Below, one piece after another: positions 557-10,444 of a DNA stretch of 26,370 nucleotides; position 1 is the first letter of the stretch, and each line of letters opens with the position of its first letter. Under the pieces are notes generated by a model, which made no database searches, was not told the DNA's origin, and worked only from the letters and a program-made list of their open reading frames with translations. The stretch comes from a virus. Location: positions 1-26,370 of the IMG/VR virus record IMGVR_UViG_3300001683_000102. One strand, 5' to 3'. The position numbers and the translations under genes are program-made.

Positions 557-1444
557 ATGGCTACTCTTAGTGATTTAAAATCAAGAATGAACATCGGCAA
601 TCTTACTTCTGAAATCAACAAAATTGCAGATCGTGATAAATCATTCTCAAACAACAATGATAACACATGGCGTCCTAAGTTAGACAAATCATCTAATGGG
701 TTTGCAGTGATTCGTTTTTTACCAACTCCTAGTGATGATGGTGCAAATGCACTACCTTGGTGTAAAATGTACGACCACGGATTTAAAACTCCAAATGGTT
801 CTTGGTATATCGAGAAAAGTCTGACAACCCTTGGTGAAAAAGATCCTTTATCAGAGTGGAATTCTAAACTATGGAATTCTGGTATCGAGTCCAATAAAGA
901 TGTTGTTAGAAACCAAAAACGTAGATTGAACTATTATGCAAATATCTATGTTGAACAGGATCCACAAAATCCTGACAATGAAGGTAAAGTTTTCCTTTAT
1001 CGTTTTGGCAAGAAAATCTTTGATATGATTAATGAAGCAATGCAACCAGAGTTTGCAGATGAAGATCCAATCAATCCATTCGATATGATTGGTGGTGCAT
1101 CATTTAAAATGAAGATCCGTCAAGTTGAAGGATACTGGAATTATGACAAATCCGGTTTTGCTACACCGTCACCTCTCGTAACATCTGAGGATGAAATGGT
1201 TGATATTTGGAATAAATGTTATTCTTTGAAAGATATGGTCGATCCTAGCAATTTCAAATCTTATGAGGAACTAGAAAAGAAACTTATTGATGGTGGTGTC
1301 ATTATTCGTGAGACAGTTGCTGCACCAGTTGCACCAGCTCCTGTACATGTAGTTGCACCAGTTGCACCATCAGTTGCCCCTGAACCTATTTCAGAATCCT
1401 CTGATGATGCAATGTCATATTTTAAGAAGTTAGCTAATAGTTAA
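557..1444 (+). CDS. 32: Single-stranded DNA-binding protein gp32
   Basis: A 295-residue orthologue of T4 gp32, which coats ssDNA in replication, recombination and repair. The core carries the diagnostic block of NEGKVFLYRFGKKIFD followed by the INPFD and IRQVEGYWNYDKSGF motifs. The zinc ligands of T4 gp32 (one His, three Cys) are not preserved: the equivalent loop after the HGF motif has no cysteine, and the only Cys nearby is residue 69. The C-terminus is a Pro/Ala/Val-rich linker (about residues 250-275) and a short acidic-aromatic tip, shorter and less acidic than in T4. The ATG has AAGGA 9 bases upstream. Its stop overlaps the stop of the convergent tape-measure-like gene. Confidence 0.96.
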   Translation: MATLSDLKSRMNIGNLTSEINKIADRDKSFSNNNDNTWRPKLDKSSNGFAVIRFLPTPSDDGANALPWCKMYDHGFKTPNGSWYIEKSLTTLGEKDPLSEWNSKLWNSGIESNKDVVRNQKRRLNYYANIYVEQDPQNPDNEGKVFLYRFGKKIFDMINEAMQPEFADEDPINPFDMIGGASFKMKIRQVEGYWNYDKSGFATPSPLVTSEDEMVDIWNKCYSLKDMVDPSNFKSYEELEKKLIDGGVIIRETVAAPVAPAPVHVVAPVAPSVAPEPISESSDDAMSYFKKLANS

Positions 1445-4038
1445 CCAAATCCAGGCATTAATATCGGCCCGTACTTCTTGTTTACCAACATAGAAGTCGG
1501 GTCGTTATCATGTCCAGACTCAGGTGGTCTTTCCTGAGATGATCCGTTATTGTTGGTGACATTGTTATTGTTAACAATTGTATTGTTTGCAGTTCCAGTA
1601 TCACCAACTTTATTATCTAAGGTCTGATTAACCATTTTATTTGCAATATTACTAACATCACCAGCTTGTCCTGCTTCTTGGACTTTCAATTTATCATCCT
1701 CACTAGTAGTCAATCCAATTGCATTCGATAACAATCCCATCGGAGTATAATCATATGCTTTCTCTAGAAATGTCGATTCATCCTTACCGTCTGCACCTGT
1801 CGTACCAGTAATCTTTGAGAATATATCATTCTTTTCACCGGAAGCTTTATCATCTTCACTCGAAGTAAATCCTAACATATTGCTCATCAAACCCATCGGA
1901 GTATAATCATATGCTTTTTCTAGAAATGTCGATTCATCCTTACCATCTTCAGTAGTACCAGATATTCTACTGAATATATCAGATTTTTTACCAGAAGCTT
2001 TATCATCTTCACTCGAAGTTAATCCTAACATATTGCTCATCAAACCCATCGGAGTATAATCATATGCTTTTTCATACCATTGAGACGGATCATAATCTTC
2101 GAACTCTGAATCTCTACTATCAAGTTTTACTTGTTCATGAGTCCTTTTATTTTCCATATCAACAACTTTTTCAGTTGCTTGTTCCGTCTTTAATGCAGTA
2201 GATGCTTTAAGTTCTGCACGTTCTTCAGCACCGACAATGGTTCTACCCTTATCACGATGTTCTTGTTCTAGTTGTTGTATGGATTTTGAAGTATCATTCG
2301 AATAAAATTCATTACCATCTTCATCTCTAGACATCACTTGAAAATTGGCTCTTCTTTCATCCTCCATTGCAACATCAAGTTGTGCATCTGCCTTTTCTAC
2401 TGCAACATCATTATTACCACCAGATAAAATCTCTTCCATTCTAGTTTTTGTCGGCCCATCCCAATCATCATAATCAATCAATGCTTGGAGTGCATCAGGT
2501 TTCATCTGTTTTAGTGCTTCCCAATTAAGAACAGTTGAATCCCCTAGTAATGAATGATCAACCACACCATCTTCTTCTGCTTGGTCGAATGCTTTTTTAG
2601 ATTCGTCTGATCCTCTCATTGAATCGTACAACATATATCCACCCGCACCCAGAGCTGCTGCACCAAGTACTGCAGCACCAATAGGATTTGCAACTGCAGC
2701 TGCAGATGCCATTGAACCAAGTGAACTCAATCCACCCATTGCAGCAGAACCCATTGATCCTAATGAACCCATCATTCCACCCATACCACCAAGAGGAATT
2801 TTCGGCATTCCCATACCCTTGGGCATCATTCCACTCATCTTGCCCATCATACCTTTACCTTTACCCATGAGATTCTTCATGAGTCCACCCTTACCTCTTT
2901 TGCCTCTTTTACCGGTAATATCATCAAGACCGAACCCATCAGAATCGAGTTCTAAATCTTCGAACCCATCTTCTGTTACATCGATAAGTTCTGTAAGTGA
3001 TTCAGATATTTCCTCAAATATTTCTATGGGAAATTGTGGTGCAAGTGGTGCAGATTCCTTGACCAATTCTGATAATGCACCACCCTTTTCTTTTTTCGGT
3101 GGTATTAATGCAAGTGGTTGCATTAACGGTTGAGTCGGTTTTTCTAAAACACTAGGACTTTCAGTTGTAGATGATATTTCTCGTTCTACTTGTAAAAGAT
3201 CTTCTGTTAATCTAACATTCTCTTGGATTTTGACTGCACGATCTTCTGCAGCTTTTTCCATTTTATCTGCATGATCTAGTTCTTCAAGTTCCTTTTCTAT
3301 TCTTGCTTTTTCTGAGAATTTCAAGATTAGTTTTTCAATTGCAAACTTCTTCAATGCACCAATAGGATCATTGATTGCTTCTTCTAGTTTTGCCTTTTTC
3401 TCAAGCCAAGGTGCAAATTTTTGTTCATGTGCTTCTTTGGCTTTATCCAACTTAAGTTCAAGTGTAGACCGTTCAACCTGTTTTTGTAGATCCTGTTGTG
3501 TAGTACGGAGATTGATATCAACAGATGGTAGTTGAATATTATCAGGACTAAATGAGGATTCAAGTTTCTCAATAATACTGGAGAAATTTTGAATCGAATC
3601 AGATATCTGAGAAACCTGATCCACAGAACCCTTTTCTAATGATAGAGTAAGATCACGTAGAATGGATGAAGTTTCTTGTGTTATAGATTCATTGAGTTTT
3701 TGAATCTCTTTATTCGTTTCAAAATTACTCTTTTGATATTCACCAAACGTATCAGTTGATGCATTAAGGTTTCCAAATTCAGTCAGTAGTGTTTTCCGGC
3801 TAAGTTTTTCACCTAGATCCTGTAGATCTATGGAGTCACGAACCCCATTTAACGATTTTGCAATATCATCAAGTCCATCTAATAAGATATCTGTTTCATT
3901 AGAAGAATCCAATTTAAGATTTTCTAATGGTCGAACAGCATCATGTATTATAGGTTCAATAATACTTAACGATTGATTATCCTGTACACTAGTTTCAGAA
4001 TTATCGGTTTTTGTCTGGTTTAAGAGTAATTTGGGCAT
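1441..4038 (-). CDS. Putative tail tape-measure / hub protein (gp29 analogue)
   Basis: An 865-residue protein with tape-measure architecture. It has a helical N-terminal third with charged coiled coil at about residues 185-290, then a basic Gly/Met/Lys-rich stretch, then a hydrophobic Gly/Ala segment at about 415-470. The acidic C-terminal region carries three tandem repeats of 51-52 residues around the motif KAYDYTPMGL. It directly follows the gp26 and gp51-like pair, with its ATG overlapping the stop of the latter as TAATG. That is the position of a tape-measure gene after tail chaperones (lambda G-T-H). T4 gp29 has 590 residues, so this is longer. I see no residue-level match to gp29, so the role rests on context and architecture. 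Confidence 0.72.
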   Translation of the reverse strand: MPKLLLNQTKTDNSETSVQDNQSLSIIEPIIHDAVRPLENLKLDSSNETDILLDGLDDIAKSLNGVRDSIDLQDLGEKLSRKTLLTEFGNLNASTDTFGEYQKSNFETNKEIQKLNESITQETSSILRDLTLSLEKGSVDQVSQISDSIQNFSSIIEKLESSFSPDNIQLPSVDINLRTTQQDLQKQVERSTLELKLDKAKEAHEQKFAPWLEKKAKLEEAINDPIGALKKFAIEKLILKFSEKARIEKELEELDHADKMEKAAEDRAVKIQENVRLTEDLLQVEREISSTTESPSVLEKPTQPLMQPLALIPPKKEKGGALSELVKESAPLAPQFPIEIFEEISESLTELIDVTEDGFEDLELDSDGFGLDDITGKRGKRGKGGLMKNLMGKGKGMMGKMSGMMPKGMGMPKIPLGGMGGMMGSLGSMGSAAMGGLSSLGSMASAAAVANPIGAAVLGAAALGAGGYMLYDSMRGSDESKKAFDQAEEDGVVDHSLLGDSTVLNWEALKQMKPDALQALIDYDDWDGPTKTRMEEILSGGNNDVAVEKADAQLDVAMEDERRANFQVMSRDEDGNEFYSNDTSKSIQQLEQEHRDKGRTIVGAEERAELKASTALKTEQATEKVVDMENKRTHEQVKLDSRDSEFEDYDPSQWYEKAYDYTPMGLMSNMLGLTSSEDDKASGKKSDIFSRISGTTEDGKDESTFLEKAYDYTPMGLMSNMLGFTSSEDDKASGEKNDIFSKITGTTGADGKDESTFLEKAYDYTPMGLLSNAIGLTTSEDDKLKVQEAGQAGDVSNIANKMVNQTLDNKVGDTGTANNTIVNNNNVTNNNGSSQERPPESGHDNDPTSMLVNKKYGPILMPGFG
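1690..2078 (-). repeat. Three tandem ~153-156 bp coding repeats in the tape-measure-like gene
   Basis: The sequence CATCGGAGTATAATCATATG recurs at 1738, 1894 and 2047, giving periods of 156 and 153 bases (52 and 51 codons). The first two protein units, which are the two right-hand DNA copies, are nearly identical; the third is partial and more diverged. Whole-codon periods fit in-frame duplication. Confidence 0.9.
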
Positions 4039-4238
4039 TATCTTGAATTCCGTTTATTGTTTGCAGCTTTAATTTTTTCGTTCTCTTGTTCAATATAATC
4101 AATCAACATACCCACATACAAATCTCTTTCCCAAGGAATCATATTTTCAATATCACCTAACGAATAGTTATGGTGTTGCATTAATGCAAAATTAGTTTTC
4201 AAATATGCACCCAATCCATTATGAGAAAGAGCTATTAG
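4038..4238 (-). CDS. 51: gp51-like C-terminal frame, probably made as a gp26 -1 frameshift fusion
   Basis: A 66-codon frame that opens exactly at the slippery heptamer ending gp26 and runs to a TAA overlapping the tape-measure ATG. Key motifs are LKTNFALMQHHNYSL and IENMIPWERDLYVGML followed by a charged helix. From memory, this pattern resembles the short protein often annotated as gp51 (baseplate hub assembly catalyst) after gp26 in marine T4-like phages, and it recalls the T domain of GT-type tail assembly chaperones. The first in-frame ATG (base 4181) has no ribosome binding site and would discard the conserved front part. I therefore infer expression as a gp26-gp51 fusion of about 297 residues spanning 4038-4930. 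Separate translation of a 47-residue protein from 4181 is the alternative. Confidence 0.75.
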   Translation of the reverse strand, partial: LIALSHNGLGAYLKTNFALMQHHNYSLGDIENMIPWERDLYVGMLIDYIEQENEKIKAANNKRNSR

Positions 4239-4930
4239 AAAAAAGACTCGATACCCTCAATTCTAACAGTTCCTTTTACTTTAGTTTTTGGATTAATCAA
4301 ATCTACATCCAAATGAACTTTCGGTAAGGTTTTAAAGAAATCGATAATCTTTTGAAATTGGGAATTATTCATCGATTCAATGAAATCTTGAAGTTCTTTA
4401 TCTGTAAAGTCATCCGCTTCATATACTGCATCACCATCAAATACCGATAATACAGATTTTTTAATCGTTTCAATAAAGGTAGAATCTTCAGATGCATCTT
4501 CTATTGCCATATCCATTGTAGGATACTTCATAAGAATACCAACTTTATCATCCATCATTATCAGGTTATCTTTCTTTTTAGGTCTAATACATTTAACAGC
4601 CATTAGATCCACTTTAACTTTTGCATATGTTTCATTATCATCCGGACAAAGAACTTTAACAACAACCTCTTCGGATACGGATTTTGCACGAAGATGCAGA
4701 AACATATATTCGACATCGAAGGTCGGCATTTCTGAATACTTCATTTTTTCATATGTGCAATTTTCAATTATCTGACCAATTGCATCAGACCTTTCCTGAT
4801 GATCACCAGTTTCATTGGCTATCATCAATAACTTTTCTTCCTTAACCAAGAAAGGTCTAAATTTAATTTTCTTCCCATTACTAGGAAGTGTCAATGTATA
4901 TATTGGAGCATTCAATTTTGGTAAACTCAT
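4235..4930 (-). CDS. 26: Baseplate hub / tail assembly protein gp26
   Basis: A 231-residue member of the T4 gp26 family (T4 gp26 has 208 residues), needed for assembly of the central baseplate hub. Support is the N-terminal beta-rich part with the FRPFLVKEEKLLMIA motif, the following helix with GQIIENCTYEK, the YMFLHLRAKSVSE strand-helix, and the helical C-terminal part near FIESMNNSQFQKIIDFF. The gene ends in Phe-Phe-stop on a slippery run, which suggests that gp26 alone and a longer fusion are both made, as for lambda gpG and gpGT. It follows gp54 by 22 bases in the minus-strand late operon and leads into the tape-measure-like gene. Confidence 0.88.
   Translation of the reverse strand: MSLPKLNAPIYTLTLPSNGKKIKFRPFLVKEEKLLMIANETGDHQERSDAIGQIIENCTYEKMKYSEMPTFDVEYMFLHLRAKSVSEEVVVKVLCPDDNETYAKVKVDLMAVKCIRPKKKDNLIMMDDKVGILMKYPTMDMAIEDASEDSTFIETIKKSVLSVFDGDAVYEADDFTDKELQDFIESMNNSQFQKIIDFFKTLPKVHLDVDLINPKTKVKGTVRIEGIESFF
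4238..4244 (-). promoter_or_regulatory. Slippery heptamer TTTTTTC for -1 frameshift
   Basis: On the minus strand the gp26 frame reads TCT TTT TTC TAA. The heptamer T TTT TTC fits X XXY YYZ exactly in phase. It lies directly before tandem stops (TAA TAG), and a -1 slip enters the gp51-like frame with CTA ATA GCT. About 25 bases downstream GGTGCAT can pair imperfectly with ATGCAACACC as a possible stimulatory stem. Confidence 0.75.
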
Positions 4931-4952: not shown

Positions 4953-5540
4953 TTATGTTTCTTTAGTTATTTCAGTAGTGAAATCTGTATAGTTAAATTT
5001 AATGGACATTATGGATACATTTGTTCCAGCATCCATTGTCATTTCATTTTTCGATATCGATATTGGATACACTTCATTCAATGTAACCTCATATGTTTTT
5101 TCTGCACCTTCACGTGTTTGCATAACAGTATTAGATGCTAATGCAGATACTTTAACTTGTGCAATATAATCATCAAAATATGCAACTGTACCAGAACCAC
5201 GATGATATATTGAATCTATCCATCTTTCGAAGAACGTTCTTTCTCTATAATCATGTGATAAGTAAAATGATGCAGAGAATGTTGCCCAATTGGCAGAGAT
5301 TGCATAATTTCTTTCTGGTCTATTATTCGTTGACGCTGATTGATTTGAATCAATTGCAATATCTGGAAGTTCTGTTGATGAACAATACATATTCATTCTA
5401 TCATCTATAACAGGAACTAGATTGCCAACACCAATTAATTGGAATTGGAATTTATTACTTCTTGCAAATGGTTGCGCAATGCCCATATGGACATTATCGA
5501 CAAACTGATCAAACCCTTTAAATGGTGATTCTAATCCCAT
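4953..5540 (-). CDS. 54: Baseplate tail-tube initiator gp54 (gp19-fold)
   Basis: A 195-residue protein of the tail-tube fold. It starts with a short lead, then the strand with FQFQLIGVGNLVP, a central segment with YAISANWATFSASFYLSHDY, a helix with FFERWIDSIYH and C-terminal beta strands with LNEVYPISIS. That order matches gp19 and the C-terminal tube domain of gp54, which sits on gp48 and nucleates the tube. At 195 residues it is much shorter than T4 gp54 (320). The true tube gene gp19 is present separately at 9905-10444 and gp48 at 6676, so the remaining tube-like protein is best called gp54. AAGG precedes the ATG. Confidence 0.7.
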   Translation of the reverse strand: MGLESPFKGFDQFVDNVHMGIAQPFARSNKFQFQLIGVGNLVPVIDDRMNMYCSSTELPDIAIDSNQSASTNNRPERNYAISANWATFSASFYLSHDYRERTFFERWIDSIYHRGSGTVAYFDDYIAQVKVSALASNTVMQTREGAEKTYEVTLNEVYPISISKNEMTMDAGTNVSIMSIKFNYTDFTTEITKET

Positions 5541-9904: not shown

Positions 9905-10444
9905 TTACTTTGTCACAGTCGGTTTGTCACTAGTGAAGTAGTTGTAAGTCCATGTTACTGGAAATTCTTCTACTGCTGTAGCTTGATCATAATCTAATGC
10001 AATTTCACCACAAACTGACGGCCATAGACCGAAGAATTTGTAAGTTTTAATTGTCTTAGACTGACGATCCAATTGGTGTACAATTGCAGAACTTTGGTAT
10101 GCAGCAGGATCCATAGTGTTGTCTCCCTCTGCAATAGTTCTTTCAAATGCATCCATCCAACCTTCAATTGCATTACGGATGTTGAAGTCCGTATCATTGA
10201 TAATGTTAGTTTCCCAATTGTCGTAAGTACGATCACCGGCAAGTTTAAGGATCCGTCCACGATAAGGAACTTCAACCTCTTGGATTGTAGATGTTGGTAA
10301 AGAAGCAGATTTACATAAGTAAGTGAATTCTTCTCCAGCAGCACCAGCATTTGCAAGTGATGGGAAAGTCATGATTACTTTGAAATGGTTTGCTCTTGCA
10401 CCACCACCAGTTAGATTACTTTTAAAACTTTCTATATTGGCCAT
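9905..10444 (-). CDS. 19: Tail tube protein gp19
   Basis: A 179-residue orthologue of T4 gp19 (163 residues), the subunit of the hexameric tube rings. Recognisable parts are the N-terminal NHFKVIMTFPSL strand, FTYLCKSASLPTSTIQEVEV followed by PYRGRILKLAGDRTYDNWE, and the C-terminal GLWPSVCGEIALDYD and FPVTWTYNYF strands. These are the conserved tube motifs of T4-like phages. GGGAG lies about 8 bases before the ATG. It follows the sheath gene by 13 bases and ends before a strong terminator. Confidence 0.97.
   Translation of the reverse strand: MANIESFKSNLTGGGARANHFKVIMTFPSLANAGAAGEEFTYLCKSASLPTSTIQEVEVPYRGRILKLAGDRTYDNWETNIINDTDFNIRNAIEGWMDAFERTIAEGDNTMDPAAYQSSAIVHQLDRQSKTIKTYKFFGLWPSVCGEIALDYDQATAVEEFPVTWTYNYFTSDKPTVTK

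Follow-up and report, generated by a model that had tools for sequence, protein, structure and literature searches.

Layout of the gp26 locus

The DNA analysed here, termed the window, is the 26,370-base record of a marine virus that infects bacteria (IMG/VR record IMGVR_UViG_3300001683_000102), and it carries T4-type structural genes. On its minus strand, genes for the head closure protein gp4, the DNA end protector gp2 and a tail-tube-like protein are followed by a gp26-like gene, by an open frame in the -1 phase, and by a gene encoding a protein of 865 amino acids (aa). The junction between gp26 and the -1 frame is the subject of this report. An earlier note, made from the sequence of the window, had proposed that a programmed -1 frameshift joins the two frames into a long form of a tail assembly chaperone (TAC).

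The 3' end of gp26 on the minus strand reads ...ATT GAG GGT ATC GAG TCT TTT TTC TAA TAG. Its T_TTT_TTC heptamer (4244-4238) lies in the X_XXY_YYZ phase, which is the phase of a -1 slippery site, and a slip back by one base would bypass both stops and enter a frame of 66 codons with the translation LIALSHNGLGAYLKTNFALMQHHNYSLGDIENMIPWERDLYVGMLIDYIEQENEKIKAANNKRNSR. The stop codon of this frame overlaps the ATG of the 865-aa gene by one base (TAATG). Direct reading of the sequence thus bore out what the earlier note had said of the heptamer, of the bypassed stops and of the junction with the next gene, the last to the base. Its statement that the -1 frame lacks a ribosome binding site of its own also held: the first 8 codons contain no start led by a ribosome binding site, and the first TTG, at codon 9, pairs with the anti-Shine-Dalgarno sequence (aSD) at +1.8 kcal/mol.

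Table 1 Features at the gp26 junction of the window.
Feature	Coordinates	Strand	Remarks
gp26-like gene (231 aa), short form of the tail assembly chaperone (TAC-N)	4235..4930	-	stop TAA 4237-4235
Slippery heptamer T_TTT_TTC	4238..4244	-	read directly; kept in relatives
Two consecutive zero-frame stops, TAA TAG	4232..4237	-	read directly; adjoining heptamer
-1 frame (66 aa), C-domain of the chaperone (TAC-C, as at the gp51 C-terminus)	4038..4238	-	stop 4040-4038
Shine-Dalgarno-like GAGGG, candidate upstream stimulator	4254..4258	-	9 nucleotides (nt) upstream of heptamer
5' arm of downstream RNA helix, CUCUUUCUCA	4222..4231	-	starts 6 nt past heptamer
3' arm of downstream RNA helix, UGGGAAAGAG	4124..4133	-	codons W-E-R-D of PWERD motif
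865-aa gene, tape-measure position	1441..4038	-	ATG overlaps -1 frame stop (TAATG)

Protein families and conservation of the slippery site

The gp26-like protein matched PF12322 (E 8.7e-61) and phrog_150 (E 9e-67). The -1 frame matched phrog_634 (E 2e-25), which is annotated as baseplate hub assembly catalyst, i.e. gp51, and a profile comparison aligned it with residues 205-245 of T4-type gp51 (hhalign, E 6.6e-7). The description of the -1 frame as gp51-like was therefore right for the C-terminal ~50 residues of gp51 and not for the whole protein, since T4 gp51 comprises both the N-terminal and the C-terminal parts. A profile comparison of gp26 with the N-terminal part of gp51 gave an E of 2.4e-8. 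Both T4 gp26 (8.8e-64) and T4 gp51 (3.9e-52) match PF12322 over its full length, and only gp51 extends into phrog_634. From these matches, and with both halves confirmed by profile comparison, T4 gp26 is the short form and T4 gp51 the long, fused one, and the two are paralogous.

The AlphaFold (AF2) model of the window gp26 had a mean predicted local distance difference test score (pLDDT) of 83.8. In a second-look structural alignment its top neighbour was the HK97 tail assembly chaperone (2ob9_A), with a Z of 7.7, which is below 8, and the next row at 4.7; the alignment with 2ob9_A spans residues 1-85 of the model, with 84 aligned residues at a root-mean-square deviation of 4.0. A Foldseek search of the gp26 and gp51 models against the PDB returned no significant match (gp26 E 6.2), and the second-look alignment of the gp51 model contained no HK97 chaperone row. 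The predicted HK97 gp13-like fold of the gp26 N-terminus is accordingly treated as supportive only. HK97 gp13 (PDB 2ob9) aligns with the N-terminal 85 residues; gp26, unlike gp13, has a further region of ~145 residues without a clear match.

Relatives of gp26 were taken from IMG/VR (80) and then from further scans, which gave 175 unique loci. In the 80 IMG/VR relatives, a T run at the end of gp26 was followed by the same -1 frame wherever the contig was long enough. One extra codon separates the slip from the stop in most relatives, and at loci with a zero frame longer by some codons the T run is found ahead of the stop codon. In a screen that demanded the heptamer, T_TTT_TTN was present in 175 of 175 unique loci (last base C in 136, A in 21, T in 16 and G in 2) and in 35 of 35 clusters formed below 70% aa identity; 24 loci fell outside the screen: T4-type and Ackermannviridae relatives, contigs most of which break off close to the heptamer position, and two loci, KVP40 and L116, in which the heptamer was present on inspection. 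The base rates in the 35 clusters were lower: TTT accounts for 68% of the remaining Phe codons, and a T precedes Phe in 28%. An open frame of 66 codons arose in 0.45% of shuffles. From these comparisons the heptamer and the -1 frame are not products of chance, and conservation is a far stronger argument for this than the shuffle frequency.

Conservation of the C-domain begins with its first residues (ALSH), directly past the slip and before any usable start codon. Because several lineages have no ATG, GTG or TTG in the -1 frame for the first 18-31 codons, the early part of the C-domain is hardly reachable except by frameshifting. Five Tequatrovirus-type loci (T4 and four relatives), in which gp26 was recovered beside an in-frame gp51, serve as a natural negative control: they keep the Phe-Phe pair but encode it by TTC TTT, without the heptamer. 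The 3' end of T4 gene 26 (L090) reads GAG TTC TTT GAG; its Phe-Phe, retained from a presumed ancestral slippery site whose heptamer has decayed, is perhaps a fossil of the frameshift.

RNA elements around the slippery site

Consensus folding of the 130 nt past the slip gave a helix. Its 5' arm starts 6 nt downstream of the heptamer, a distance that falls in the 5-9 nt spacing of programmed -1 frameshift structures. In the window, CUCUUUCUCA (4231-4222) pairs with UGGGAAAGAG (4133-4124) over 10 base pairs (bp), enclosing an 88-nt loop, and this helix appears in both the minimum-energy and the centroid folds. Compared with shuffles that preserve the -1 frame protein and phage codon usage, the region past the slip was over-stable, with a mean z of -2.31 over 87 clusters, 61 of them below -1.64. 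Equal-length gp26 regions served as controls and gave -0.25 to -0.62, and the homologous part of the in-frame T4-type gp51 gave -0.52.

The ten pairs were also followed over 60 sequences. They were formed in 88.5% of cells, compared with 37-62% when the pairing was slid by 1-3 bases, and 28 cells carried double changes versus 13 in shuffles (0/500). Third-position changes in the Ala and Leu codons of the 5' arm go along with those in the Arg and Glu codons of the 3' arm; Fisher's test gave p 1.4e-13 and 5.4e-10 for these predicted partners and 0.015 and 0.65 for crossed pairs of the same synonymous sites. Other structures were found at the same spot in other lineages: a hairpin GCCCUC-N6-GAGGGC in the P-HM2-type lineage; GGGCUCUC-N4-GAGAGCCU, with the variants GGACUCUC/GAGAGUCU and GGACUAUC/GAUAGUCU, in another lineage group; and a 10-bp CGCUCGGGCG/CGUUCGAGCG in Vibrio phage D479. 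Loci cut by a contig end (e.g. L010, L020 and L043) are correctly indexed in the z-score and Fisher figures, and the per-lineage helix classification contains a few that are mis-indexed. Sliding 60-nt alifold windows showed no local consensus structure, and an Rfam search returned nothing relevant. The RNA signal is either long-range or, where it is local, confined to subgroups.

These comparisons show that the RNA downstream of the slip is under selection beyond the protein code, and the helix may stimulate slippage. We lean, with some reserve, towards the view that the stimulatory RNA module of the T4-like chaperone frameshift has switched architecture: its 5' arm would stay fixed ~6 nt past U_UUU_UUN, its partner would lie either ~90 nt downstream in the PWERD codons or in a local hairpin, and the module would be absent where T4 split gp26 and gp51. 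If the helix does stimulate slippage, the ratio of short to long chaperone in abundant ocean phages would be partly set by a measurable RNA element, and the lineages in which a local hairpin has taken the place of the long-range helix would form a natural experiment in frameshift tuning, with the gp26/gp51 split of T4 as a matched control without frameshifting.

Upstream of the heptamer, the mean aSD pairing of the Shine-Dalgarno-like element in the 35 clusters was -5.6 kcal/mol; synonymous shuffles gave -4.8 +/- 0.23 (0/500). At other places, Glu-Gly reaches almost the same pairing (-6.1, compared with -6.4). Because a conserved [E/R]-G dipeptide accounts for most of the pairing, GAGGG is kept as a candidate stimulator only.

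Probable chaperone frameshift and alternative explanations

We consider it very probable, from the sequence comparisons, that a programmed -1 frameshift, apparently aided by the helix, yields two forms of a tail assembly chaperone, one short and one long, which would act on the tape measure. Most ribosomes would halt at the TAA past T_TTT_TTC and release gp26 (TAC-N), and a minority would slip back one base on U_UUU_UUC and read the 66-codon -1 frame, giving a 297-aa fusion of gp26 and the C-domain (TAC-NC). Slippage would be aided by the RNA helix with its 5' arm 6 nt past the heptamer, which is long-range in the window phage, and possibly by the upstream GAGGG. Like gpG and gpGT of phage lambda, both forms would coat the tape measure, the putative product of the next gene, and bring in subunits of the tail tube. 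That the fusion is made, in what ratio to the short form, and that both act as chaperones is what we infer from the analysis. The lambda-like layout put forward in the earlier note is strongly supported by the conservation, the family matches and the selected downstream RNA, with the HK97-chaperone-like fold in a supportive role. Read in this way, the 175 loci confirm the lambda-style chaperone frameshift as the rule among marine T4-like phages.

Several observations weigh against this interpretation. In KVP40 (L084), RHph_I9 (L087), Marzo (L103), phiM19 (L108) and AF3 (L112), the heptamer occurs together with a TRATG overlap in the -1 frame, and a separately restarted free C-domain beside the fusion is possible in these phages. 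The Ackermannviridae relatives Vibrio YC (L106), K445 (L107) and Serratia IME250 (L105) lack T_TTT_TTN. Past their Ackermannviridae-type gp26 genes, the -1 frame encodes what looks like a similar C-domain, and the TAATG overlap in YC and K445 suggests another way of making it. The earlier note had held that relatives without the slippery run but with the downstream frame, a good start codon and a ribosome binding site would speak against a frameshift; such relatives were found only among the distant Ackermannviridae and not elsewhere. The window's own RNA was only modestly stabler than shuffles (z -1.26, and -0.6 versus synonymous shuffles). Counted on the tree, compensatory double changes numbered only five at the predicted pairs and none at the crossed pairs, and a few unrelated third-position pairs scored similarly; because of this, covariation by itself would not be decisive. 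The 865-aa protein of the window matched a tape-measure family only weakly (phrog_4197, E 0.018). The gene at the same downstream position in HTVC008M and phiM19 has tape-measure family matches (8e-12 and 2e-5), and the gene after the -1 frame sits at the tape-measure position of relatives.

Some of these observations bear on a different route to the C-domain, implied by most public annotations, in which it is a separate small protein (gp51) made by termination-reinitiation or from an internal start. The annotation of gp51 as its own gene in public records, the TRATG overlaps of some lineages and the missing heptamer in Ackermannviridae are in its favour, but the annotated starts often lie inside the conserved domain (P-HM2, C48C1), the first possible start in many lineages is at codon 19-32, past conserved residues, and the window has no Shine-Dalgarno-led start. 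Moreover, a heptamer in all 35 clusters is not expected without use, and the same domain is fused in frame in T4. We regard this route as improbable.

Slippage of the transcribing polymerase on the T run, in place of a change of ribosomal frame, is less probable again. The T run of 6, extended to 8 in a few relatives (HTVC008M, Melnitz), would favour it, but transcriptional slippage usually requires longer runs and most relatives have only six T (136 of 175 end in C); nor would it give an obvious role to an RNA helix that is under selection and lies 6 nt away, as expected of a ribosomal stimulator. A single gene split by an indel, through sequencing error or decay, has nothing in its favour beyond the split itself and is already refuted by the relatives, as the same split and heptamer recur in 175 unique loci and in many finished isolate genomes; its probability is negligible.

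The proposed frameshift resembles known systems in part. The E. coli dnaX -1 frameshift has a Shine-Dalgarno-like element ~10 nt upstream, an A_AAA_AAG site and a downstream helix in the form of a local hairpin; the upstream element and the downstream helix are shared with the window, whereas the slippery site, the local hairpin and the gene, which is unrelated, differ. Lambda and the window would share a short form and a -1 frameshifted long form and differ in the slippery heptamer, which is GGGAAAG in lambda, and we know of no long-range helix in lambda. Vladimirov, Gautam and Davidson (2022, Virology 566:9-15, doi 10.1016/j.virol.2021.11.003) reportedly described frameshifting conserved in several T4-like groups, and genes 26 and 51 in T4. 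The PRFect paper (PMC10885494) cites that study for the separate short and fused chaperone genes of T4; for poly-T frameshift signals in the TAC-N genes of T4-like phages, it is cited by the Adele paper (PMC12846349). As far as these citing papers convey, the chaperones are the same proteins as in the window (gp26 as TAC-N, gp26 plus C-domain as TAC-NC) with the same kind of poly-T -1 signal. A 2016 review (PMC5009743) describes the lambda gpG/gpGT pair, in which a short protein and its longer, -1 frameshifted version act on the tape measure, and calls the G-T frameshift widely conserved 'except T4', an exception that the 2022 study reportedly removed. T4 and the window both carry PF12322 proteins, with the C-domain on gp51 in T4, where the two are divergently transcribed paralogous genes without a frameshift. 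The recasting of gp26 and gp51 as tail assembly chaperones, offered as new in the earlier note, was thus preceded by Vladimirov et al. 2022, to judge from the papers that cite it. Our literature search, in which that study was known through citing papers, found no paper on RNA structure at the T4-like chaperone site. The window locus therefore adds to an already known T4-like chaperone frameshift; as far as the sources reach, its novelty is limited and the RNA helix is the part that was not found described.

Public 'gp51' annotations (e.g. L083 3004-3186, L109 3208-3391) start inside the conserved C-domain, giving products of 30-48 aa, or gp51 is omitted; none of the public records opened annotates gp51 as a joined frameshift product. 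A frameshift would explain this inconsistent or missed annotation in marine T4-like phages.

Further observations concern the neighbouring genes. The window encodes two tail-tube-family proteins, at 4953-5540 (-) and 9905-10444 (-), both matching phrog_45; the one adjoining gp26 is the more divergent of the two and may be a gp54-like tube initiator. The C-terminal third of the 865-aa protein (1441-4038, -) contains three copies of a repeat of ~50-60 residues (EKAYDYTPMGL[ML]SN...TSSEDDK), which is perhaps a unit of length variation. In some cyanophages, peptidase or endolysin-like segments occur in the gene that takes the tape-measure position (L083 3186-5018, L081 3180-5528).

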